From positions 1-64,000 of the forward strand of contig JADFXB010000003.1 of assembly GCA_015233935.1 (NCBI GenBank): a stretch of DNA of 64,000 nucleotides, written 5' to 3'. Every line of letters begins with the position of its first letter. Positions within the stretch are counted from its first letter, which is position 1. Below, piece after piece: positions 39,093 to 52,240 of this stretch. The translations under genes and the position numbers were made by a program. Source of the stretch: Magnetococcales bacterium (GTDB taxonomy: Bacteria; Pseudomonadota; Magnetococcia; Magnetococcales; JADFXB01). The notes beneath the pieces were generated by a model. That model did no database searches. It saw only the letters and a list, made by a program, of their open reading frames with translations, and was not told the origin of the DNA.

Positions 39093-40448
39093 GTGAAAGG
39101 CCCTTACCAAGGCATGGAAAATCAAATCATTAACCCATTAGAAACGGTTTGCCAGACGGTTCATGAGGCCATCATTATCGTCAATCGGGATCTGGTCATC
39201 CAATTGGTGAATCAAGCGGCCTATCGTTATTGTGGCTTAACGGAAGCCTTTCGTGGACAGCCCTTCCATAGCATCACCACCACCTGCGGGGCCAAACTGG
39301 CGGATGCCCTGAAGCAGGTGATTGCGGAAAAGCGTCCCATGCAGCAGTTGCAGGTCATGTGTCAGGGGTGGGACCGGCACAATATTTTGTTGGAGGCCAC
39401 CATCAACCCTGTTTTGGATGATCAGGGTACCTGTCAGGGGGCGGTGTTGGCCATCCGGGATCGCACCCGTATGATTGGTGGTGATGTGACACCCAACCGT
39501 CGCAATCGTTTTCATCGTCTGCTGGGTAGCTCTCCTGGGATGGAGGAGATCTATTCTCTGATTGAAAATCTGGCTCCCATGAACACCACCGTCTTGATCA
39601 CCGGCGAAAGCGGGGTGGGCAAGGAGTTGGCAGCGGAGGCCATTCATTTGCAAAGCCAACGGGCCAGTAAACCCTTGGTTAAGGTCAACTGTTCGGCCTT
39701 GTCGGACACCCTGTTGGAAAGCGAACTGTTTGGTCACGTCAAAGGGGCCTTTACTGGAGCGGTGAAAGATCGTCTGGGACGTTTCCAACTGGCTGATCAG
39801 GGGACCATCTTTTTGGATGAAATTGGTGACATCAGCCCCAACATGCAGGTTCGCCTGCTGCGGGTGTTGCAGGAAGGGGAATTTGAACGGGTGGGAGACT
39901 CCCACACCAGCCGGGTGGATGTGCGCATTGTGGCCGCCACCAACCAGGACTTGCGAAAAAAGGTGGCCAAGGAGACCTTTCGGGAGGATCTCTATTATCG
40001 CTTGAACGTGGTGGAAATTCCCATGCCTCCTTTAAGGGAGCGCAAGGATGATATTCCTTTGCTGGTAGAGCATTTCATCATCAAATTCAACCAGAAACAC
40101 GGCAAGGCCATTAGTGCAGTCAACAGCAAGGTGATGGACCTCTTCAACGGCTATCCATGGCCTGGCAATGTGCGGGAGTTGGAACATGTGATTGAACATG
40201 CCTTTGTCACCTGCCGGGAGCCGGTGATCAAACTGGGCCATCTGCCCAAATCCCTGTTTAATCCTGATGTGAATATTCGGGAGATTCCCCCGGCTGTGGT
40301 GGAAATTGAACAATCCAGCGATGAAAAGGAGGCCATTTTACGTGCCCTGGAGGCCACCCATTGGAAAAAAAATCGGGCCGCTGAACTGCTGGGCATGAGC
40401 CGCAGCAGCCTTTATCGCAAAATTGAACAGTATGGGATTACAGCCTGA
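39093..40448 (+). CDS. Sigma-54-dependent transcriptional activator (PAS-AAA-HTH)
   Basis: 451 residues. A PAS sensory domain (about 12-118) lacks a receiver domain, so a ligand or redox signal is likely rather than phosphorylation. The AAA+ domain (about 143-380) has Walker A G-E-S-G-V-G-K-E, the sigma-54-contact motif G-A-F-T-G-A and Walker B I-F-L-D-E-I. The Fis-type helix-turn-helix is at about 410-450. It activates RpoN promoters. The GTG at 39093 is used; an ATG at 39114 is an alternative. The target is unknown, but it lies upstream of the sugar cluster at 41.0-48.8 kb on the same strand. Confidence 0.9.
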   Translation: MKGPYQGMENQIINPLETVCQTVHEAIIIVNRDLVIQLVNQAAYRYCGLTEAFRGQPFHSITTTCGAKLADALKQVIAEKRPMQQLQVMCQGWDRHNILLEATINPVLDDQGTCQGAVLAIRDRTRMIGGDVTPNRRNRFHRLLGSSPGMEEIYSLIENLAPMNTTVLITGESGVGKELAAEAIHLQSQRASKPLVKVNCSALSDTLLESELFGHVKGAFTGAVKDRLGRFQLADQGTIFLDEIGDISPNMQVRLLRVLQEGEFERVGDSHTSRVDVRIVAATNQDLRKKVAKETFREDLYYRLNVVEIPMPPLRERKDDIPLLVEHFIIKFNQKHGKAISAVNSKVMDLFNGYPWPGNVRELEHVIEHAFVTCREPVIKLGHLPKSLFNPDVNIREIPPAVVEIEQSSDEKEAILRALEATHWKKNRAAELLGMSRSSLYRKIEQYGITA

Positions 40449-40473
40449 CCCCTATTATTCCTCTTGAAGATAT

Positions 40474-40842
40474 TCACTCAGTGGCAACCGGCTTTCCAGT
40501 ACAAACAGGGTGATTTTTTTTGATAGCCGGGGCCAAGTCCACCTCATAGACCATCCCTTTGCGAAAGGGAAACATGATCTCTGCCAAACCATCCACCGGA
40601 TCATAGCGGGTGATGCGAATGGGTATGGAGGTCACCTTTTTGGTTTCCAAATCCGTGGCTGTGGCCACAAAATCACTTAACTGGACCGAGGATGGTGGTG
40701 ACAATGGATTGCCCAGGCAATCTTTGGGCTTTAAGTCAATCACCGCCTTTTCCAAACTTGTGGCATTGTATTCGGCACCATAAGCACATGAAATACCAAG
40801 CATAACCACCACAAAACAACATATTTTTGCTTGCATTTCCAA
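40474..40842 (-). CDS. Small secreted protein (hypothetical)
   Basis: 122 residues. A signal peptide (hydrophobic core about 6-20, cleaved near A-Y-G) precedes a beta-rich mature part with two cysteines (K-D-C-L-G and P-V-C-T-G) that may pair. The start is read as a TTG at 40842 because GGGGGAG lies six bases upstream; the ATG two codons later is at poor distance. I do not recognise the family. It lies antisense between the sigma-54 activator and the sugar cluster. Confidence 0.65.
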   Translation of the reverse strand: MEMQAKICCFVVVMLGISCAYGAEYNATSLEKAVIDLKPKDCLGNPLSPPSSVQLSDFVATATDLETKKVTSIPIRITRYDPVDGLAEIMFPFRKGMVYEVDLAPAIKKNHPVCTGKPVATE

Positions 40843-41022
40843 ATCTAACTCCCCCTAAATTTTGTTTTTTAGCTGGACCCTTTAGATACCCTATTGTTCC
40901 CTCTTTGACAACCAGGAAATACCATTCCAACCCATTGGCCTAATGTCGCTTAACTTTATGTTCAAGCCAACCGATGAATATTCCAAACTTCTTGCAACCT
41001 TTACCATTATCAGAGCAGAGCG

Positions 41023-42075
41023 ATGAAAGACTGGCGCACCATTGTGATTCCACCAGATGCTTCCATCCTGCAAGCCATGGAAATCATGGACCGGGGTTCC
41101 ATGCGATTTGGTCTGGTCGCCAATAGTGATCTCAAACTGTTGGGTGTGGTAACCGATGGGGATATTCGCCGGGGTTTGCTCCACCGGCTTGGTTTGGAAC
41201 AATCCGTAGTCCAAGTGATGAACCCCACCCCGCAAATTGCCAAACTGAACGACTCCAGGGAACATATTCTCTCCCTTATGCGGGGATTCGATCTGTTTCA
41301 TATTCCGGTGGTGGACGATGACAATCGGATCATCCGACTGGAAACCCTGCAAGATCTATTACGCCCGGATCGCAAAAAAAACTGGGTGGTGCTGATGGCA
41401 GGAGGCTTGGGCAGTCGTTTGGGAGAATTGACCAGAGATTGTCCTAAACCTTTGTTGCGCATAGGTGGACAACCCATTCTGGAAATCATCCTGGAAAGTT
41501 TCATCTCCTTTGGATTTGAACGTTTCTATATTTCCGTCAACTACAAAAAGCAGATGATTCGGGACTACTTTGGCAATGGTTCCCGCTGGGGTGTGACCAT
41601 TCGCTATTTGGAAGAGGAGGAGCGGTTGGGAACAGCCGGTGCCCTCTCCCTGATCAAGGAAATTCCAGAGGAACCCCTATTTGTCATGAACGGCGACTTG
41701 CTCACCCGGGTGGATATGACCCGCATCCTGACCTTTCATCAGGAGAGCCAGGCCAAGGCCACCTTGTGCGTGCGCAAGGTGGAGGAAACCCTGCCCTTCG
41801 GGGTGGTGGAGAGCGAACACAACCGTTTGCTGGCCATTCGGGAAAAACCCACCCGCAGCTATTTTGTCAATGCAGGCATCTATATTTTGGAACCGGAAGT
41901 GCTCCGCTTGCTGCCAGCCCATCAACCGTTGGACATGCCCGATTTATTGCAACGGGTATTGGACCACCAGATGCCAGCCGCCACCTATCCATTCCTGGAA
42001 TACTGGTTGGATATTGGCCGTATGGGTGATTTTCACCAGGCATGTCAGGATGTGACGGAGTTTTCACCATCATGA
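41023..42075 (+). CDS. CBS-domain sugar nucleotidyltransferase, PtmE-like
   Basis: 350 residues. A pair of CBS domains (about 1-118) precedes a nucleotidyltransferase domain (about 122-340) with L-M-A-G-G-L-G-S-R-L-G, the P-K-P-L-L motif, and M-N-G-D-L for metal binding. The same architecture occurs in Campylobacter PtmE, which makes GDP-glucosamine at the start of legionaminic acid synthesis. CBS domains often bind adenine nucleotides and could tune activity. It is the first gene of a same-strand run, and its stop overlaps the next ATG (ATGA). The activity is inferred from architecture and neighbours. Confidence 0.85.
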   Translation: MKDWRTIVIPPDASILQAMEIMDRGSMRFGLVANSDLKLLGVVTDGDIRRGLLHRLGLEQSVVQVMNPTPQIAKLNDSREHILSLMRGFDLFHIPVVDDDNRIIRLETLQDLLRPDRKKNWVVLMAGGLGSRLGELTRDCPKPLLRIGGQPILEIILESFISFGFERFYISVNYKKQMIRDYFGNGSRWGVTIRYLEEEERLGTAGALSLIKEIPEEPLFVMNGDLLTRVDMTRILTFHQESQAKATLCVRKVEETLPFGVVESEHNRLLAIREKPTRSYFVNAGIYILEPEVLRLLPAHQPLDMPDLLQRVLDHQMPAATYPFLEYWLDIGRMGDFHQACQDVTEFSPS

Positions 42076-42776
42076 ACACCTCCGAACGGGTTCTGGCCAT
42101 CATTCCCGCCCGTGGAGGTTCCAAAGGCCTTCCCGGCAAAAACATCCGGCCCTTGCAGGGAAAGCCCCTGCTGGCATGGACGGTGGAAGCTGCCAGGGCC
42201 TGTCCGTTGCTTGATCGGGTGATTCTCTCCTCCGACGATGAAACCATCATGGCCACTGCCAGAGAGTGGGGTTGCGAAGTCCCCTTTATTCGCCCCCCCC
42301 ATTTAGCGGATGATAAAGCCTCCATGATGGATGTGATCTGGCATGCCTGGCAGGCATTGGGCAAACGCCATGCCTGGCTGGTCTTGTTGCAGCCCACCTC
42401 CCCTTTGCGATGGGCCGCAGATATTACCGCCTGTTTGGAGATATGTTTGCGGGGAAGTGCACCGGCTGCCGTCTCCATGACAGCGACCAGCAAGCCACCC
42501 CACTGGCTGGTCACATTGGATGAGGCGGGCCACCCTTACCCCCTGTTACCAGGCGATGGTCTGCAACGACAGAGGCAGGAGTTGCTGACCACCTATCTGC
42601 CCAATGGGGCGGTTTATGTGGCCAACACCTATTGGCTGGCCCAGACCCAAACCTTTATCACACGGGAAACCAAGGTTCACATCATGCCCGCTGAACGGTC
42701 GGTGGATATCGATTCGGAATTGGATTTTCGTCTGTGCCAACTTCTCCTGGAGAGAGGCCAACATGAACATTTATAA
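42072..42776 (+). CDS. CMP-nonulosonate synthetase (acylneuraminate cytidylyltransferase family)
   Basis: 234 residues, full length. The N-terminal I-P-A-R-G-G-S-K-G-L-P-G-K-N motif binds CTP, followed by S-S-D-D-E and the L-Q-P-T-S-P-L-R motif. The late D-I-D-S-E-L-D-F motif is typical. The family joins CMP to sialic, legionaminic or pseudaminic acid; by context legionaminic-type (LegF/PtmB) is most likely. The ATG at 42072 overlaps the preceding stop as ATGA, with GGAG 11 bases upstream. An in-frame ATG at 42042 would overlap further and is rejected. The next gene starts before its stop. Confidence 0.88.
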   Translation: MNTSERVLAIIPARGGSKGLPGKNIRPLQGKPLLAWTVEAARACPLLDRVILSSDDETIMATAREWGCEVPFIRPPHLADDKASMMDVIWHAWQALGKRHAWLVLLQPTSPLRWAADITACLEICLRGSAPAAVSMTATSKPPHWLVTLDEAGHPYPLLPGDGLQRQRQELLTTYLPNGAVYVANTYWLAQTQTFITRETKVHIMPAERSVDIDSELDFRLCQLLLERGQHEHL

Positions 42777-44103
42777 AAAACCCATCGCCATCACCACTGG
42801 TTATGATATGGCGGATAGCCCCTCCCTGGAAGCCTTTTATGGACTGCCCCCACAGGTGCAATTTTGCCGTCGTTGTGTGATTTCCAACCAGCGACCCAAT
42901 TCATCGCCGGAGTTTCACCATACCCGCACCTCCCGCAAGACCACCATCCACCTGGATGAAGAGGGTATTTGCGACGCCTGCCGCCACGCCGAGCAAAAGG
43001 CCATGACCAACTGGCAGGCCAGGGAAGAGGAACTCCAGGAACTTTGCAACCGCTATCGTCGCCATGATGGACGCTACGATTGCCTGGTGCCCGGTTCCGG
43101 CGGCAAGGATAGTTTTTATGCTGCCCATATTTTAAAATATAAATACAACATGCACCCCCTCACCGTAACCTGGGCACCCCATATCTATACCGAATGGGGC
43201 TGGCAAAATTTTCAGGCCTGGATCCATGCCGGTTTCGATAATTTATTGATGACACCCAACGGTCGCGTCCACCGCCTGCTCACCCGTCTGGCATTGGAAA
43301 CCCTGTTTCATCCCTTCCAGCCTTTCATTTTGGGACAAAAAAATATTGCCCCCAAAATGGCCCTCATGCACGGCATCCCACTGGTCTTTTATGGGGAAAA
43401 CGAGGCTGAATATGGCAATCCCCGTAATGATGCCGCCAAACCAACCAGGGATCTTTCCTATTTTGCTGAAGGGGACTTGGCCAATATTCATCTTTCCGGG
43501 GTCTCCTGTGCCGATCTGGAAAGCTATTTTGGCATTGACCGTCATGAGATCCAGCCCTATCTGCCTGCCGATCCTGAAGCCCTGAACAAAGCCGGGGTGG
43601 AGGTGCACTATCTGGGTTACTATCTGCCCTGGCATCCCCAGGGGGCCTTCTATTATTCGGTGGAGCATGGGGGTTTCCGCCCATCACCGGAAAGAACACC
43701 CGGAACCTACAGCAAATACAACAGCATTGATGATCGGGTGGACGATCTCCACTATTTCACCACCCACATTAAATTTGGTATTGGACGTGCCACCTATGAT
43801 GCCTCCCAGGAGGTGCGCAGCGGTGAAATCACCCGGGAGGAAGGTGTAGCTTTAGTGCGAAAATACGATGGAGAGTTCCCAGAACGCTTTATCCAACAGT
43901 TGTTGGACTATTTGAGCCTGCCTGCCAAAGAGTTTCCCACTGCCGGTAGCATGTTTGAGCAACCCATTTTGGATCGGGACTATTTTCTTGCCCTGGCCGA
44001 TCAATTTCGCTCGCCCCACTTATGGCGTCGCCATGGCGGGCGTTGGCAGTTGCGTCATACCGTTTTCGGGGAAGAAGATGCCAAGGCCCAGAGGATTGCA
44101 TGA
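42763..44103 (+). CDS. N-acetyl sugar amidotransferase (WbpG/PseA/PtmG-like)
   Basis: 446 residues. Cys35-x-x-Cys38 (C-R-R-C) and Cys70-x-x-Cys73 (C-D-A-C) form a zinc-like site. The PP-loop S-G-G-K-D-S is at 112-117. This is the N-acetyl sugar amidotransferase family, which adenylates an acetamido sugar and replaces oxygen with ammonia to make an acetamidino group, using ammonia from HisF/HisH partners. Cyclase-like and glutaminase-like partners are encoded at 44100 and 48155. It overlaps the preceding gene by 14 bp and the next ATG by 4 bp, so it is translationally coupled. It may modify a legionaminate. Confidence 0.9.
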   Translation: MNIYKKPIAITTGYDMADSPSLEAFYGLPPQVQFCRRCVISNQRPNSSPEFHHTRTSRKTTIHLDEEGICDACRHAEQKAMTNWQAREEELQELCNRYRRHDGRYDCLVPGSGGKDSFYAAHILKYKYNMHPLTVTWAPHIYTEWGWQNFQAWIHAGFDNLLMTPNGRVHRLLTRLALETLFHPFQPFILGQKNIAPKMALMHGIPLVFYGENEAEYGNPRNDAAKPTRDLSYFAEGDLANIHLSGVSCADLESYFGIDRHEIQPYLPADPEALNKAGVEVHYLGYYLPWHPQGAFYYSVEHGGFRPSPERTPGTYSKYNSIDDRVDDLHYFTTHIKFGIGRATYDASQEVRSGEITREEGVALVRKYDGEFPERFIQQLLDYLSLPAKEFPTAGSMFEQPILDRDYFLALADQFRSPHLWRRHGGRWQLRHTVFGEEDAKAQRIA

Positions 44104-44885
44104 AGCCGCAAAAACAGATGCCTGCGGCCCGCCTGGTAGCCCGTCTGGATATAAAAGCTCCCAATCTGGTGAAAGGGGTGCAACTGGAAGGGTTACGCAA
44201 ACTGGGAGACCCCCACGCCTTTGCCTTGCATTATTATCAACAGGGGGTGGATGAACTCCTGTACATGGATATTGTGGCCAGCCTTTACGAGAGAAATTCT
44301 CTGTTGGATTTGGTGGAACGCACCACCGCCAACGTCTTTGTTCCCTTAACGGTGGGGGGTGGCTTGCGCAGCGTGGCCGATGTGGGGAAGGCTCTCCGAG
44401 CAGGGGCGGACAAGGTGGCCATCAATACAGCGGCCATTAAACGTCCCCAACTCATCAGTGAAGTGGCCAATGCTTATGGTCGTCAGTGTATGGTCCTTTC
44501 CATCGAGGCCAAACGCCGTCCCAACGGCCAATGGGAAGCCTATTTTGATAATGGACGAGAGCATACCGGTCTGAATGCAGTGGATTGGGCCAAAAAAGGG
44601 TGTGAGCTGGGGGCAGGTGAAATTCTTTTGACTTCCGTGGATCGGGAGGGAACCGCCAGCGGGGTGGACCATGAACTCATCCAGGCCATTGCCAGCCAGA
44701 TTCCCATTCCAATCATCGCAAGTGGTGGTGTAGGTCAGTTTTCCCATATACAACAGGCTCTTGACTCTGGTGCCCAGGCGGTTGCCATGGCCCATGTGCT
44801 CCATTATAAATTATGCGATTTACCCACCCTCCGTCAGCAAGGCAGCCAAGCCGGCATCCATTTACGTTCTCTTCCCCGTCTGTAA
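44100..44885 (+). CDS. hisF2: HisF-like cyclase subunit of a sugar amidotransferase
   Basis: 261 residues with the HisF TIM-barrel pattern: R-L-D-I-K near the start, T-V-G-G-G-L-R at 84-90, N-T-A-A and S-V-D-R-E-G-T at 179-185. Asp17 and Asp181 match conserved Asp residues, but Glu136 replaces the Asp that acts as general acid in histidine HisF (I-E-A-K instead of I-D-A-K). This fits a HisF that only channels ammonia. The start overlaps the previous stop as ATGA with GAGG five bases upstream. Its partner HisH gene lies 3.3 kb downstream, beyond a kinase gene. A role in histidine synthesis is unlikely. Confidence 0.85.
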   Translation: MKPQKQMPAARLVARLDIKAPNLVKGVQLEGLRKLGDPHAFALHYYQQGVDELLYMDIVASLYERNSLLDLVERTTANVFVPLTVGGGLRSVADVGKALRAGADKVAINTAAIKRPQLISEVANAYGRQCMVLSIEAKRRPNGQWEAYFDNGREHTGLNAVDWAKKGCELGAGEILLTSVDREGTASGVDHELIQAIASQIPIPIIASGGVGQFSHIQQALDSGAQAVAMAHVLHYKLCDLPTLRQQGSQAGIHLRSLPRL

Positions 44886-44989
44886 ATATCCCCTGGAAAA
44901 TGTAGAAAAAATGTGAAAAACTATTCCATATTTTGGCGAAGGTAACATTATTTTTAACACATTAATCTCTGTATAACTAATGGAGAATC

Positions 44990-47900
44990 ATGAATACCCT
45001 CTCGCCCCAGCTCTTGAGATGGCTGTTTACCGCCTTATTTGTGGCCGTTGCAATGGGTATTTTGGTAACAAGTCACCTGTTTTTACAGGTAAAAAAGAAG
45101 GATATGATCGAAAATTTGGTGGAGGTGCATGGCTTTCACCTGGTAATTGCAGAGCTTGCCCTGAAAAAGGACTGGCATCACATTCTCACCGATCTTTCCC
45201 TGCTTTCCAACACCCCGGAACTTGCCAAAGCTTTTGATGAAATGTCGGCGGAAGAGACTGCCAGCAGCCATCGTGGGATTGAGGCCATTTTTGATCGTTT
45301 TCTCAACGCCAACAAAATATACCACAAGGTTCGGCTGATTGATCTCAATGGTCGTGAGACCATCAAGGCCCATTATGACCGTATTTGGGATACCATTCAG
45401 GAAAAAAACATCTACCTGGCTAGTCCCCCATATAAACCGCATGGACGTTCTCCAGATCTTTTGCAAGACAAAAGCAAAAAAGTTTATTTCAATGAAACCA
45501 GAAAATTACCAAAAGGTGGGGTTTATGTTTCTCCCTTTGATCTTAATACCGAGTTTGACCAAATCATTGCGGACCTTCCCACCATCCGCTTCAGCACCCC
45601 TATTTATAATGAAAATGATTTATTAAAGGGCATACTGGTTTTAAGCTACAACGGCATTCATCTGCTCAATAATTTTAAAAGTGTTCTGCCCATAGGGGTG
45701 GATGCGGCTCTTCTCAATGCAGAAGGCTACTGGTTTCACCGTATTGATAATCAGCATTTATTTGGTTTTGCAACCGGGGATGCTTACAGCTTTGGCCATG
45801 AATTTCCAGAGGTTTGGACTGCCATCCACCATACCACCTCCGGGGTGGTGGAAAACCAGCAGGGCATCTTTTTGCATCAGGAATTTCGTCCTTTTCGCGA
45901 AGGAACCCCTGACCTGTCGGATCGTTTGCAAAATCTTTCCCAGGGTCGATTGCTCAATGATTTGAATAATTATGTATGGAAGATTGTCATTCGAATCAGA
46001 CCGGATGAACTTGATGGAAAGCTTGATCCTATCCGCCAGGTTACCTGGACGGTGGCGGCGGCTGGTACTGGTTTGTTATTCCTGCTTTGTTTTGTCTTTT
46101 ATCTTTGGTTCCATCGCAAAATACAGGAGCGGGAAGAGAAAAAGAGCGAGCTTATCGCCCAAAATATTTTTCACGAGTTGCAGGTTCTGGTTTACCAAAA
46201 TCAGGATTTGCAGAGCAAGCTGGATTTGTTCCTTCACAAACTCTTCTCTCTACCCTGGTTAAATGCTACCTGTCGTGGGGCGATCTTCCTCTCCGGTGAG
46301 GATCATCGTCCCCAGTTGGCGGCCAGCTATCCTCTTGGTCAGGTCTTCGCGCTTCAATGTGGCGGAAATGAAGCCAACTGCCACTGCCGACAGGTATTTT
46401 ACAACAAAGAAGAGCCATCGCCCCATAACGGTTGTATGACCTTTCCTGCCTGGAAACAGGACAAGTTGGAAGCAGTCTTGGGCATATTTCAGGATCGTTC
46501 GGAATCGGAATCCCATTTTCATGCAGTCTTCGATGACAGACTACGCTCCTTTCTGCAAAATGCCGCCCAACTGTTGACTGATCTGGTGGGAAGACATCGG
46601 GATTTGGAAGAGTTTGCCAAGTTGCATCGGGCGGTGGATCAAAGCCCAGCGTCGGTGGTGATCACCGATTTGCGGGGGAAAATTGAATATGTAAATGAAA
46701 GATTTACCAAAGTTTCTGGGTATACCGCATCGGAGGCCATTGGTCAGACACCTGGAATACTCAAGTCGGGGGAGATGTCCCCATCCATCTATCAGGAGCT
46801 ATGGCAAACAATTCTGGCCGGGCAGGAGTGGCAAGGAGAATTGTGCAATCGGCACAAGGATGGCAGCCTCTATTGGGAGTGGGCTTTGATTACCCCCATT
46901 CGCAATCCTCAAGGGCAGATGAGTAATTTTCTGGCCATCAAGGAGGATATTACCGACAAAAAGCGGGCCACTGAGGAGCGACTTTTTCTGGAAAAACAGT
47001 TGCGACAGGCTCAGAAAATGGAAGCCATTGGTCACTTAACCGGCGGCATTGCCCATGATTTCAACAATATTCTGGCAGCCATCAAGGGTTTTACCGAACT
47101 TTCCCTTTTGCGTTTTGCCACCGATGAGCAGAGTAAACTCAATGCATATCTGAAAAATATTTTGACTGCATCTGACCGGGCGCGGGATTTAATTGCCCAA
47201 ATGCTGGTTTTCTCCCGCAGTAAGGAGACGGAAACCCGGCGTGTTTTGGTGGAGCCGTTGGTCAAAGAAGTAGTCAAGCTCATGCGGGCCACTCTGCCTG
47301 CCAGCATATCCATCACCACCAATTTTTCCCGTGATTCCTTGGAAGTCTCTGCCGATCCAGTGCAAATGCATCAGATATTGATGAATTTGTTTGTCAACGC
47401 AAGAGATGCCATGGCAGGCAAGGGCAGGTTGGATGTGGAGGTATTTATGGAGAAAGGGGAGAAAAATCTCCTGTGCACCTCCTGTCACAGCCTGTTCTCC
47501 ATCAAGGATAAGATTGTCTTGATGGTGCGGGATGATGGTCCTGGAATTCCTACGGAGATTCAAAGCAAAATTTTTGAACCTTTTTTCACCACCAAGGAGG
47601 TGGGACAGGGAACTGGGATGGGACTTTCCATGGTTCATGGCATTGTCCATTCGTTTCAAGGCCATATCGTTCTGGAAAGTTCGGAGCAGGGGACCACCTT
47701 TTTTCTTTATTTCAACCGATTGCAGGAGAAGCCTTCCCAACCTGCTCCTGTTTCCCCTCTCCCGCGCATTTACAGCGAACAAAAGGGTCATGTACTTGTG
47801 GTGGATGATGAAGTGGCCATTCTCGGCTTTTTGCGGGAACATTTGGCGGGGGAGGGTTTCAAAGTAACTGCGTGCAACACCAGTTTAGAAGCCCTGGTCA

Positions 47901-48151
47901 CCTTTGAGTCCAATCCACAAAAATTTAATCTGGTCATCACCGATCAAACCATGCCGGAAATGACTGGTTTGGAATTGGTGCAACGTCTGTTGACCATTCA
48001 ACCCAAGTTGCCCATCATCCTTTGTACGGGCTACAGCCGGGAGGTCAATGAGGTCACGGCCAGGGGTTATGGCATCCACACCTTTTTGAAAAAACCGGTT
48101 GAACTGGCTAAGCTCAATGAGGCGTTACGAGAGATCCTGGGAGATAGGTAA
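44990..48151 (+). CDS. Membrane hybrid histidine kinase (periplasmic sensor, GAF, PAS, HisKA, HATPase, REC)
   Basis: 1053 residues. A membrane helix (about 10-32) precedes a large periplasmic domain (about 35-345) with a dCache/LuxQ-like pattern, then a second helix (about 352-374). A GAF-like domain (about 395-560) holds Cys457, Cys464, Cys466 and Cys482. A PAS domain (about 570-680) follows, then HisKA with His689 in G-G-I-A-H-D-F-N-N, the HATPase, and a receiver with Asp985 in T-D-Q-T-M-P-E-M-T-G. GGAG lies four bases before the ATG. It starts 104 bp after the HisF-like gene and ends 3 bp before the HisH-like gene, so it is probably co-transcribed with hisH. No dedicated response regulator is present. 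Confidence 0.92.
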   Translation: MNTLSPQLLRWLFTALFVAVAMGILVTSHLFLQVKKKDMIENLVEVHGFHLVIAELALKKDWHHILTDLSLLSNTPELAKAFDEMSAEETASSHRGIEAIFDRFLNANKIYHKVRLIDLNGRETIKAHYDRIWDTIQEKNIYLASPPYKPHGRSPDLLQDKSKKVYFNETRKLPKGGVYVSPFDLNTEFDQIIADLPTIRFSTPIYNENDLLKGILVLSYNGIHLLNNFKSVLPIGVDAALLNAEGYWFHRIDNQHLFGFATGDAYSFGHEFPEVWTAIHHTTSGVVENQQGIFLHQEFRPFREGTPDLSDRLQNLSQGRLLNDLNNYVWKIVIRIRPDELDGKLDPIRQVTWTVAAAGTGLLFLLCFVFYLWFHRKIQEREEKKSELIAQNIFHELQVLVYQNQDLQSKLDLFLHKLFSLPWLNATCRGAIFLSGEDHRPQLAASYPLGQVFALQCGGNEANCHCRQVFYNKEEPSPHNGCMTFPAWKQDKLEAVLGIFQDRSESESHFHAVFDDRLRSFLQNAAQLLTDLVGRHRDLEEFAKLHRAVDQSPASVVITDLRGKIEYVNERFTKVSGYTASEAIGQTPGILKSGEMSPSIYQELWQTILAGQEWQGELCNRHKDGSLYWEWALITPIRNPQGQMSNFLAIKEDITDKKRATEERLFLEKQLRQAQKMEAIGHLTGGIAHDFNNILAAIKGFTELSLLRFATDEQSKLNAYLKNILTASDRARDLIAQMLVFSRSKETETRRVLVEPLVKEVVKLMRATLPASISITTNFSRDSLEVSADPVQMHQILMNLFVNARDAMAGKGRLDVEVFMEKGEKNLLCTSCHSLFSIKDKIVLMVRDDGPGIPTEIQSKIFEPFFTTKEVGQGTGMGLSMVHGIVHSFQGHIVLESSEQGTTFFLYFNRLQEKPSQPAPVSPLPRIYSEQKGHVLVVDDEVAILGFLREHLAGEGFKVTACNTSLEALVTFESNPQKFNLVITDQTMPEMTGLELVQRLLTIQPKLPIILCTGYSREVNEVTARGYGIHTFLKKPVELAKLNEALREILGDR

Positions 48152-48154
48152 CAG

Positions 48155-48796
48155 ATGAAGCGGGTCACCGTGGTGGATTATGGCCTGGGCAATTTGTTAA
48201 GTGTGCGCCGTGCCTTTGAACAATGTGGTGCGGAGGTTACCATCAGCCATTCGCCGGTGACGGTGGAGGCGGCGGATCGTTTGGTGGTTCCTGGTGTGGG
48301 GGCGTTTGGCAAGGGGATGTGGGGTTTGCGTCAGAATGGACTGGATTTGGCCATCCAGCAGCATGTGGCCAGTGGGCGGCCTTTATTGGGTATTTGTTTG
48401 GGCATGCAGTTATTGTTGGATGAAAGCGACGAATTTGGTGTTCATGCTGGATTGGGACTTATCCCTGGTAGGGTTATTGCCATTCCTGCTCAGGGAGCTG
48501 ACGGTTCTTCCCACCCTATTCCTCACATGGGATGGAACGCCCTTTATTCTCCTCCTGGTTCTCCCAGTTGGCAGGGAACCCTGCTCAATGGTATTGCCCA
48601 GGGGGAGTATTGCTATTTTGTTCATTCTTTCATGGCCAACCCAAACCATTCCTCTCACAGATTGGCCGACTGCCAATATAACGGGATCGCCATCAGTGCG
48701 GTGATTGCCAAAGAGAACATTCTGGGCTGCCAGTTCCACCCAGAGAAAAGTGGTACCGTTGGCCTCGCCATTCTCAACACATTTTTGTCCATGTAA
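48155..48796 (+). CDS. hisH2: HisH-like glutaminase subunit
   Basis: 213 residues, class I glutamine amidotransferase. The catalytic triad is Cys81 in G-I-C-L-G-M-Q, His195 and Glu197 in Q-F-H-P-E-K-S-G. The N-terminal V-D-Y-G-L-G-N-L-L-S-V is typical of HisH. It releases ammonia from glutamine for a HisF partner. In this setting the ammonia would go through the HisF-like protein to the N-acetyl sugar amidotransferase. It starts 3 bp after the kinase stop and is likely translated from the same transcript. Confidence 0.9.
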   Translation: MKRVTVVDYGLGNLLSVRRAFEQCGAEVTISHSPVTVEAADRLVVPGVGAFGKGMWGLRQNGLDLAIQQHVASGRPLLGICLGMQLLLDESDEFGVHAGLGLIPGRVIAIPAQGADGSSHPIPHMGWNALYSPPGSPSWQGTLLNGIAQGEYCYFVHSFMANPNHSSHRLADCQYNGIAISAVIAKENILGCQFHPEKSGTVGLAILNTFLSM

Positions 48797-48915
48797 GAAA
48801 ACCCGCCAACAAAAAAATGTGCCATTTTTTCGATATTTCTGCTACACTTGCGGAGATGACCTATTCGGTTCAATAAACTTTTCGTTGCAAAACAAGATCA
48901 TGGGAGACAATTTCC

Positions 48916-50007
48916 GTGGACAGCATCCTGATGCCCCTTTTTCGTCCTTACAAGTTTGGCAAATTGAAAGTTCGCAATCGTTTTGCCCTGGCTCCCATGA
49001 CCCGCAGTCGCTCACCCAAAGGCATCCCCGGCAAAGATGTGGCCAATTACTACCGCCGCTACGCAGAAAACGAAGTAGGACTGATCATCACCGAAGGCGT
49101 GGCCATCAACCACAAAGCCGCCCTCGGCTACCCAGACGTACCTAACCTGCACGACAAAAAAGCCATCAAAGGATGGAAACGCGTCGTGGATGGCGTACAT
49201 AAAGCCGGTGGAGCCATCGTGCCACAAATTTGGCACGTAGGTAACCACCACCGCCTGGGAGACGAACCCATTCCCAACGTCCCCGGCTACGGTCCCTCCT
49301 CCCTGGTGGAAAATGACCAGGTGGTGGTCAAGGAAATGTCCCGCAAAGATATCCAAGAGGTGGTGAAAGCCTTCGCTGACGCCGCACGCCAAGCCAAGAA
49401 AATCGGCTTCGATGGTGTGGAAATCCACGGTGCCCACGGCTACTTGATCGACCAGTTTTTCTGGCCCCGCACCAACCGACGGGCAGACCGCTATGGCGGC
49501 TCCATGGAAAATCGCCTGCGCTTTGCCGTGGAAATCATCCGCGCCGTCCGCCGGGCAGTAGGCCCCAAATTTCCCGTCATCTTCCGTTTTTCCCAATGGA
49601 AACCATTGGATTATCAGACCAAACTAGCCAACAATCCGGAGGAATTAAGCCAATTCCTCACCCCCCTGTCCCGTGCCGGAGTCGATATCTTCCACGCCAG
49701 CTCCCGCCGCTATTTTGAACCCGAATTTGAAGAATCTAACCTCAACCTGGCGGGCTGGACCAAGCAAATCACCGGCAAACCAGTGATTACCGTCGGCAGC
49801 ATTGGTCTGGACTCGGTCAGTTGGCGTGCTGCTAATCCCGCCGGCATCGAAGCCCTGGCCCGCATGCTCTTAAGAGACGAATTCGACCTGGCCGCCGTAG
49901 GACGTGCCCTGCTGGCCGACAGCCAATGGGTGAAGAAAATCCGGGAGGACCGCTTCGAAGAGATCAAACCCTTTACCAAGGATGCGTTCAACTCCCTGGA
50001 AAATTGA
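48916..50007 (+). CDS. NADH:flavin oxidoreductase (old yellow enzyme family)
   Basis: 363 residues with an FMN-binding TIM barrel. Visible motifs are A-P-M-T-R-S-R, the Q-I-W-H-V-G-N active-site region, H-G-A-H-G-Y-L-I-D-Q-F near 175-185, and R-x-A-D-x-Y-G-G-S-x-x-N-R-x-R-F. The family reduces activated C=C bonds with NAD(P)H. No iron-sulfur cysteine cluster is present, so it is the short class. The start is a GTG at 48916 with GGGAG nine bases upstream. The substrate is unknown. It lies downstream of the sugar cluster but has its own terminator. Confidence 0.88.
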   Translation: MDSILMPLFRPYKFGKLKVRNRFALAPMTRSRSPKGIPGKDVANYYRRYAENEVGLIITEGVAINHKAALGYPDVPNLHDKKAIKGWKRVVDGVHKAGGAIVPQIWHVGNHHRLGDEPIPNVPGYGPSSLVENDQVVVKEMSRKDIQEVVKAFADAARQAKKIGFDGVEIHGAHGYLIDQFFWPRTNRRADRYGGSMENRLRFAVEIIRAVRRAVGPKFPVIFRFSQWKPLDYQTKLANNPEELSQFLTPLSRAGVDIFHASSRRYFEPEFEESNLNLAGWTKQITGKPVITVGSIGLDSVSWRAANPAGIEALARMLLRDEFDLAAVGRALLADSQWVKKIREDRFEEIKPFTKDAFNSLEN

Positions 50008-50031
50008 CTTGGCAATCGGAAACGATCAGTA

Positions 50032-50067
50032 ACAAAATCCCACACTCATCCATGCGTGGGATTTTGT
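50032..50067 (+). terminator. Rho-independent terminator after the OYE gene
   Basis: A 12-bp inverted repeat (arms 50032-50043 and 50056-50067) whose outer part carries T4 on the forward strand. It sits 25 bp after the OYE stop codon, before the FkbM gene. Confidence 0.75.
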
Positions 50068-50089
50068 CGTACCATTAAAGGAAAAGAGA

Positions 50090-50911
50090 ATGGCTGTTCA
50101 GAAAATTGCACACATCCATATCCAAGACGGCGGTGTTGATTTTTTCATGGACCTTGACCCCGCCTCCAGATTTGACAACACCATCATCTCCCACCTGGCG
50201 GCTGGTTCTTTTTATGAGCCAGACGTGATCTCCCTCATCATGAGAACCATTACCCCAGGAGATGTGGTCATTGACGTGGGTGCCAATGTTGGCTACTTCT
50301 CCTGTCTGCTGGCACTCCTTGTGGGAAAAAGCGGAAAAGTCGTGGCCTTTGAGCCAGACAGCAACAATCTTTCCGGCTTAACGCGAAATCTGGCCGCCAA
50401 CCAACTTGATAATATCCTAATAATTAACAAACCTGCGTCAAACAAAAAAGGATTTATGAGATTCTTTAATAATGAAGACAGCGGAGGCCATGCACTATGG
50501 GATGCTGCTGGGAAAGGAAACTTTGTGGAAATGGAAACCACGACTCTGGATGAAGAATTCAGGAAGACCAATCTTGCACCACCCAAATTGATCAAAATTG
50601 ACACAGAAGGGGCGGACCACCTAGTGCTTGAAGGAGCCAGGGAACTCCTGAAAGATCATAAAGTACCCTATATCGTTGCTGAAGTATTGCCACAAGGACT
50701 GGCCAAATTTGGTTCCTCCCAAATGCAGATGAGACGCTACATGAAAGATTTTGGCTACGATACCTTTGCTATCTACTGGAGAGGACACCTGCCAAAACTG
50801 ATTCCAGCCGATACCGTCATTGAACACGAATATGTCATGAACATCCTCTTCAGCACACCAGAAGATGTTGGACGCGCATGGCCAACCGAAAGCTACACAG
50901 TCGCCTTGTAA
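50090..50911 (+). CDS. FkbM-family methyltransferase
   Basis: 273 residues. The SAM-binding motif V-V-I-D-V-G-A-N-V-G-Y-F-S is near 62-74, followed by F-E-P-D-S-N and the late motif I-K-I-D-T-E-G-A near 166-173, all typical of FkbM methyltransferases. These methylate hydroxyl groups on polyketides, sugars or glycolipids. The substrate here is unknown, but the neighbouring surface-sugar cluster makes a sugar O-methyl group plausible. The region from about 50400 is AT-richer than its surroundings, which may hint at transfer. An A-rich AAAGGAAAAGAG lies before the ATG. Confidence 0.85.
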   Translation: MAVQKIAHIHIQDGGVDFFMDLDPASRFDNTIISHLAAGSFYEPDVISLIMRTITPGDVVIDVGANVGYFSCLLALLVGKSGKVVAFEPDSNNLSGLTRNLAANQLDNILIINKPASNKKGFMRFFNNEDSGGHALWDAAGKGNFVEMETTTLDEEFRKTNLAPPKLIKIDTEGADHLVLEGARELLKDHKVPYIVAEVLPQGLAKFGSSQMQMRRYMKDFGYDTFAIYWRGHLPKLIPADTVIEHEYVMNILFSTPEDVGRAWPTESYTVAL

Positions 50912-50960
50912 CCCCCCCACAGGAGAATAACGGTCAGACGGGAAAGTTCAACCATCGGAG

Positions 50961-51272
50961 TCAATGGGGAAAAAAGGCTTTCAAAATCAGAGCCACAATG
51001 CCACCGACCGCAACGGCCATCCCCCAACGCAAGGTGGCCAGTTCGCCATGGACTTTTGCCAGTTCAGTGTTCATGCGAAGCTCTGCCTCTTTGATATCCC
51101 GTTTGACCTCCTGGATATCTCCCCTGGTTGCAACGCTCTCCAGATTGTTCTTCTGCACTTCCTGAATAGCGGTTGCCATCCCTTTTGCCTGGGACTCATC
51201 AAAACCAGACGCCTTGAGCGTTTCGACAAATTTAAGGGTATCAAAGGTAATGGCCGTTATTCCGTCCTCCAT
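50961..51272 (-). CDS. DUF1640-like coiled-coil membrane protein
   Basis: 103 residues. The N-terminal part has F-D-T-L-K-F-V-E-T-L-K-x-x-G-F, then a coiled coil with A-T-R-G-D-I-Q-E-V-K-R-D-I, and a C-terminal membrane helix (about 82-100). This matches DUF1640 (CCDC90-like) proteins of unknown bacterial function. It is a longer relative of the protein at 15160-15399. It is convergent with the FkbM gene. Confidence 0.75.
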   Translation of the reverse strand: MEDGITAITFDTLKFVETLKASGFDESQAKGMATAIQEVQKNNLESVATRGDIQEVKRDIKEAELRMNTELAKVHGELATLRWGMAVAVGGIVALILKAFFPH

Positions 51273-51337
51273 GGATTATCAGGGTGTTGACAGATTACCA
51301 CACCGTCCACCCTGAAGTGGAGAAAAATTTATAATCC

Positions 51338-52240
51338 TTACGAAGCCACATCCTTGCCGGATTTACCCAGAAAATAGCCATCCACAAAGGGTTGCCCTTT
51401 ATTGAGTTCCACCAAGCGCGCCATGGCCTCTTCACCACTCAGTTGATTATCCAAGCGACTTTTCCAAATGGCAACAATCTTCTCCATATTTTCGCTTTGC
51501 GGCGACAAGCGAACCAGGGAGATGCCCATGCTCTGCAAACGCTCCACATGGCCAATAAGATTATAAAGACGATGGGACATGGTTTGCAGACCGTTGATGG
51601 TCAAATAGGATTCACCATCCTGGGTTGCCACCTCCATACCATCGGGAAAGGCATCACACTTGAACTGACAATTCATCTTGTGCAGGTGAAAGGCCCTTGC
51701 GGTATAACAACGGGCAGAAAAGGTGAGAGGCAGACGCCCAAAGGCAAAAACCTCCCCCTCCACGTTACGATGCTTGATCCTCTTCAAGATGGTGGCCATG
51801 GCATCGGCAGATAACTCCACCGGAAAAACCACCCGTTCCACCCCCAAACCAGCCAGAAAATCCACAGTTTCCGGGTTGTAGGTGGTGATATGAGGGCCTG
51901 CCACCAGTTTACCCCCCTCACCCACCGCAATACCCGCCATGTCGTTGGCCTCCACCGAAAATCCTTCCTGGCGGGCCAATTGCACGATGCGGTGGGTGGT
52001 CTCCACCTCCTCCTGATCCATCACCAGACCCAGGGTGGAAAAGACCACCTGCTTGCCACTGCTGCGCAAGTCGTGGGCCAATTCCATCATGTCATCCGGC
52101 GACAGGCTGTTGCGTTTGGAACAAACCACCTCGCCTATGTAAAGGACATCGGCAGCGGTTTCAAAGGCCATGCGATGATAAAAATCCCGAATCGCCTTTT
52201 TGCCCCATTCAAACAAAAGTGGACCAATGGAGAGCTTCAT
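51338..52240 (-). CDS. ubiV: Ubiquinone biosynthesis protein UbiV (U32 family)
   Basis: 300 residues. Four cysteines (Cys40, Cys178, Cys191, Cys195) have the same spacing as the 4Fe-4S ligands of E. coli UbiV (39, 180, 193, 197). With UbiU it carries out oxygen-independent hydroxylation of the ubiquinone ring. The ATG at 52240 overlaps the UbiU stop (TAATG) and gives the same N-terminus as E. coli UbiV (M-K-x-S-x-G-P-x-L); a GTG at 52249 would add three residues. It is the last gene of the ubiX-ubiU-ubiV operon. UbiT is not in the window. Confidence 0.9.
   Translation of the reverse strand: MKLSIGPLLFEWGKKAIRDFYHRMAFETAADVLYIGEVVCSKRNSLSPDDMMELAHDLRSSGKQVVFSTLGLVMDQEEVETTHRIVQLARQEGFSVEANDMAGIAVGEGGKLVAGPHITTYNPETVDFLAGLGVERVVFPVELSADAMATILKRIKHRNVEGEVFAFGRLPLTFSARCYTARAFHLHKMNCQFKCDAFPDGMEVATQDGESYLTINGLQTMSHRLYNLIGHVERLQSMGISLVRLSPQSENMEKIVAIWKSRLDNQLSGEEAMARLVELNKGQPFVDGYFLGKSGKDVAS

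Follow-up and report, generated by a model that had tools for sequence, protein, structure and literature searches.

A hybrid sensor kinase gene lies between the HisF-like and HisH-like genes of a sugar-amidation cluster in a Magnetococcales bacterium

In one lineage of the Magnetococcales, the two genes for a HisF-like and HisH-like enzyme pair are separated by the 3.2-kb gene of a hybrid sensor histidine kinase. We consider it quite probable that this lineage acquired the intact and unrelated gene by insertion, co-oriented with its neighbours, between the two subunit genes of an acetamidino-sugar cluster. The established parts of this explanation are the gene order, the intact motifs of the kinase, the adjacency of the pair in relatives, the lack of any detected kinase orthologue and the retention of the arrangement, under purifying selection, in a sister strain. 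The cluster forms a co-oriented run at 41023-48796 of the window (the whole 64,000-nucleotide stretch of DNA that was analysed), in the order CBS-nucleotidyltransferase, cytidylyltransferase, WbuX-type amidotransferase, HisF-like protein, hybrid kinase and HisH-like protein:

41023-42075, + strand: CBS-domain nucleotidyltransferase, opening the cluster (Pfam NTP_transferase and CBS)
42042-42776, + strand: CMP-nonulosonate-type cytidylyltransferase, PseF/NeuA-like (CTP_transf_3)
42772-44103, + strand: WbuX-type N-acetyl sugar amidotransferase (TIGR03573, 366.9 bits; cut-off 203.2)
44100-44885, + strand: HisF-like barrel subunit, WbuZ type (His_biosynth; WbuZ and HisF models)
44886-44989, + strand: AT-rich spacer of 104 bp (29% GC), with GGAG ahead of the kinase ATG
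44990-48151, + strand: hybrid sensor histidine kinase, 1053 aa (ATG 44990, TAA 48151; domain searches)
48155-48796, + strand: HisH-like glutaminase (TIGR01855, 207.8 bits; cut-off 105.4)
48916-50007, + strand: Old-yellow-enzyme-type oxidoreductase (OYE), downstream of hisH (domain search; also present in sister contig C203)

The first four genes overlap one another (42075/42042, 42776/42772 and 44103/44100), the ATG of the HisF-like gene at 44100 being shared with the WbuX stop as ATGA. Gaps of 104 bp and 3 bp separate the kinase from hisF upstream and from hisH downstream. These gaps and the coordinates agree exactly with the sequence-only reading that had placed a kinase between the two genes, and domain searches bear out the gene identities. 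The amidotransferase passes the cut-off of its own subfamily, as expected for the WbuX enzyme of an acetamidino-sugar cluster. The cytidylyltransferase reaches 144.6 bits with the PseF model, below the cut-off of 205.7, and is thus not assigned as PseF (pseudaminate cytidylyltransferase). The CBS-domain nucleotidyltransferase gene also precedes the cluster in two genomes of the same order (G012 and G018), and in G018 a gene with a NeuB-like start, recognized by eye from the sequence, precedes the equivalent cluster; the present assembly has two matches to PF03102 (NeuB family) elsewhere. The cluster is probably of the acetamidino-sugar type, serving a nonulosonic acid, and its likely product is a nonulosonic acid, related to legionaminic or pseudaminic acid, that bears an acetamidino group. 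Passages of two papers place acetamidino sugars of these types on the flagella of Campylobacter and in the lipopolysaccharide of Legionella (PMC3958885, PMC3694923).

The kinase consists of a transmembrane segment (residues 8-26), an extracytoplasmic dCache-like sensor, a second transmembrane segment (354-372) and then PAS, HisKA, HATPase and receiver domains. The sensor matches PF21623 and, weakly, the solved structures 2p7j and 3lid. All expected motifs are present (HDFNN at 689, NARDA at 803, DDGPG at 848, FEPFFT at 862, GTGMGL at 874, ITDQ at 983 and LKKP at 1033), and the protein has the HisKA His, the N, G1, F and G2 boxes and the receiver Asp of a hybrid kinase; it looks functional. A CTSC motif at residues 829-832 (window 47474-47485), within the HATPase region, is possibly a metal-binding insert. 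The HisKA-HATPase-REC core resembles that of the CckA- and VirA-type hybrid kinases (273.8 bits to the CckA model and 283 to the VirA-like one), but these scores are far below the equivalog cut-offs and the present kinase has a dCache-like sensor and is without a known partner.

For the sensor half of the kinase, no orthologue was found in the 47 other genomes of the order, the best cross-genome match having 28-32% identity, and no match at E <= 1e-40 in the 398 other genomes of a 399-genome sample of the phylum. This lack of an orthologue elsewhere argues for a lineage-specific insertion, and the 116 HisKA matches in the 4.5-Mb assembly put kinases among the commonest genes able to land at such a site. 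The assembly itself holds the nearest relative, a paralogue with 42% identity at 6713-10021 of L103 (contig C355), preceded by a gene for a PBP-like periplasmic protein; the reading frame of this paralogue ends close to the edge of the contig, and a HATPase domain was not matched in it. A foreign base composition of the kinase was considered and set aside, as the difference between the kinase (47% GC) and the neighbouring genes (52-57%) is too small to argue for recent transfer. A search for insertion scars also gave nothing of use, the direct and inverted repeats in the vicinity being imperfect or short and none of them flanking the kinase.

Comparison with other clusters supports the earlier statement that hisF and hisH are often adjacent. 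Eighty loci with close WbuX relatives were surveyed from a one-genome-per-species collection, adjacency being taken as a gap of at most 300 bp (usually it is under 60). Both genes are present at 67 of these loci and adjacent at 62, across many phyla, and a kinase lies between them at none of the 67. The 3.2-kb kinase sets the present locus apart from this arrangement, which is usual but not strictly defining, with five of 67 departing from it: 4.1 kb of glycan-type genes intervene at L135, a cytidylyltransferase gene at L147, and a single HisH is placed in a second amidotransferase cassette at L137, L141 and L146. The last three loci and L148, all Acidimicrobiia-type, have two WbuX-like, two HisF-like and one HisH-like gene in a row, which suggests that one glutaminase may serve two barrel partners. 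WbuX-type genes with no HisF- or HisH-like gene within the flanks examined were seen at L104, L120, L144, L159, L160, L167, L169 and G012, the HisF- and HisH-like genes of G012 being on a contig other than that of WbuX. Of the 80 loci, only L128 has a kinase near the cluster; it is over 5 kb away from WbuX, and the L128 flanks are without HisF and HisH.

Within the order, for which 48 genomes were searched, both relatives with a complete pair (G012 and G018; 2/2) carry the orthologous cluster and keep hisF next to hisH, at gaps of about 110 bp and of 15 bp or less. G013, the closest by HisF (81%), was left out of the gene-order score because its contig ends inside hisF, and the comparison includes a single genome of the family to which the window belongs. 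The sequence-only reading had held that related genomes with the pair adjacent and the kinase elsewhere would make this a chance insertion. The relatives come close to that description: the pair is indeed adjacent, and the kinase, rather than lying elsewhere, has no orthologue in them. Most likely, then, the ancestral state was adjacency and the kinase is a newcomer in this lineage.

The arrangement is nevertheless older than a single strain. With 7% contamination, the assembly is evidently a mixture of two closely related strains, and a short contig from the relative, C203, has 84-86% DNA identity to window positions 47888-51514 and the same gene order, namely the final 268 bp of the kinase region followed by hisH, the oxidoreductase and FkbM. 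Since C203 retains the kinase tail beside hisH, this adjacency predates the divergence of the two strains. For the kinase tail, dN is 0.056 and dS 0.418, a ratio of about 0.13 (85 codons of one sequence pair), and dN/dS for hisH is about 0.06; by this measure the tail is under purifying selection. The FkbM methyltransferase gene (50090-50911) has 80% amino acid identity and a dS of 1.34 between the strains, far above the divergence of its neighbours.

The same contig bears on the suspicion that the kinase was wrongly joined to hisF in a metagenome-derived assembly. The assembly is in 414 contigs, with the contamination and second strain already mentioned, and the hisF-kinase junction is seen on one contig only. 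However, recurrence of the kinase-hisH junction on the divergent contig C203 makes misassembly of that junction very unlikely, no gene is truncated, spacing and ribosome-binding sites are normal, and base composition is near that of the surroundings; an artefact is very improbable. Still harder to credit is the proposal that the pair is an extra imidazole glycerol phosphate (IGP) synthase of histidine biosynthesis, with the kinase tied to nitrogen or histidine status. The good matches to the HisF and HisH models are in its favour. The HisF-like protein scores 269 bits with HisF and 266 with WbuZ (cut-off 299.7), both just under the cut-off, and 183 with AglZ/HisF2 (cut-off 310), and has 46-81% identity to other WbuX-type HisF proteins. 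In the HisH-like protein the Cys-His-Glu triad expected of the glutaminase in a WbuX-type cluster is present as Cys81, His195 and Glu197, invariant in the alignment. Against the proposal, the HisF-like gene adjoins WbuX, and contig C199 of the same assembly carries a separate hisH, hisA-like and hisF set that covers histidine synthesis and so assigns the present pair to the sugar-acetamidino cluster. The alignment also shows that Asp17 is retained but that Glu136 occupies the second catalytic Asp position of the histidine enzyme, Asp130 in Thermotoga HisF. The HisF-like protein thus lacks one of the two catalytic Asp residues of histidine IGP synthase, the canonical C199 copy having IDAK at this point. 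Glu is found there in 56 of 69 WbuX-linked HisF-like proteins from other bacteria, with Gln in 10 and Asp in three, and Glu or Gln in place of this Asp can serve to mark the sugar type. The assignment to sugar amidation made by the sequence-only reading is therefore upheld.

Could the kinase instead be a dedicated regulator, whose periplasmic domain senses an envelope or extracellular signal and whose own promoter in the spacer sets HisH and hence the degree of amidination? It is intact, the 104-bp spacer has 29% GC, and coupling of the kinase to hisH is retained in the sister strain. Yet a site scan found no sigma-70-like promoter on the + strand of the spacer and, from the hisF stop to hisH, no + strand terminator that would isolate the kinase from hisF, and the site totals were at shuffle level (9 versus 10.2 and 12 versus 14.0). 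Moreover, no other carrier of the cluster has a kinase orthologue, and no adjoining partner regulator or Hpt gene was identified. A dedicated regulator is accordingly unlikely, and the earlier suggestion that glutaminase supply is set by the kinase promoter found no backing. As hisF and the kinase have no recognizable promoter or terminator between them, hisH is reachable from an upstream promoter; being AT-rich, the spacer may hold a promoter of another type. RNA families and riboswitches were not found in 40000-51500. Separation of the subunit genes is no sign of separate control, as the histidine hisH and hisF of the same assembly are also separated, by the HisA-like gene, and is unremarkable in itself. 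Regulation of amidination by the kinase is so far unsupported, and we would give little credence to a sensor kinase recruited into a nonulosonate-amidination operon, where its expression and signal output would tune the HisH supply and the acetamidino share of the surface sugar.

Insertion of an unrelated kinase gene is thus preferred. A common transcript of kinase and hisH, as proposed previously, is very probable from the 3-bp gap and from the one-base overlap of the kinase stop (TAA) with the hisH ATG in C203, and the two genes are probably also translationally coupled. The simplest reading of the whole run is as one operon. A single transcript would then extend from the upstream genes through hisF and the kinase to hisH, with hisH translated by coupling to the kinase end. 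The HisF-like and HisH-like proteins would still form their usual complex and supply the WbuX amidotransferase with ammonia, and the kinase would have a sensing role of its own and merely share the operon. As a counterpoint, co-expression may have been selected for, which could account for the retained position of the kinase and its tight coupling.

The locus is otherwise of a familiar kind. It has in common with the WbpG-HisH2-HisF2 and WbuX-WbuY-WbuZ clusters of Pseudomonas, Legionella and Campylobacter (pse/ptm) a WbuX-family amidotransferase, HisF-like and HisH-like proteins and a cytidylyltransferase, but differs in the 3.2-kb hybrid kinase between hisF and hisH. Legionella worsleiensis, with 66% WbuX identity, has the order WbuX-HisF-HisH-CTP. 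WbuX-HisF-HisH gene sets are listed in PMC11340318 and Legionella HisF/HisH neighbours are described in PMC3694923; in the relevant parts of these two papers, found by a non-exhaustive literature search, no kinase is mentioned in such sets. At the alphaproteobacterial locus L135 the hisF and hisH genes are of the same type and likewise apart, though the 4.1-kb insert there holds sulfotransferase-like, glycosyltransferase and deacetylase-like genes (functions judged by eye) and no kinase. The canonical hisH-hisA-hisF set shares the two-subunit glutaminase and barrel and, in this genome, a gene between the subunits, but a different substrate is expected at the present locus, where Glu replaces Asp130 of HisF.

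The novelty goes no further than the unusual order of genes in a single lineage, which has the look of a retained local insertion rather than of a proven control circuit. As it stands, this is a lineage-specific change of gene order, and it shows that a large gene can be accommodated between the two halves of the HisF/HisH glutaminase pair in sugar-amidation clusters. It also offers a naturally occurring system in which to examine whether the chemistry of the surface sugar is changed by translational coupling to a sensor kinase.
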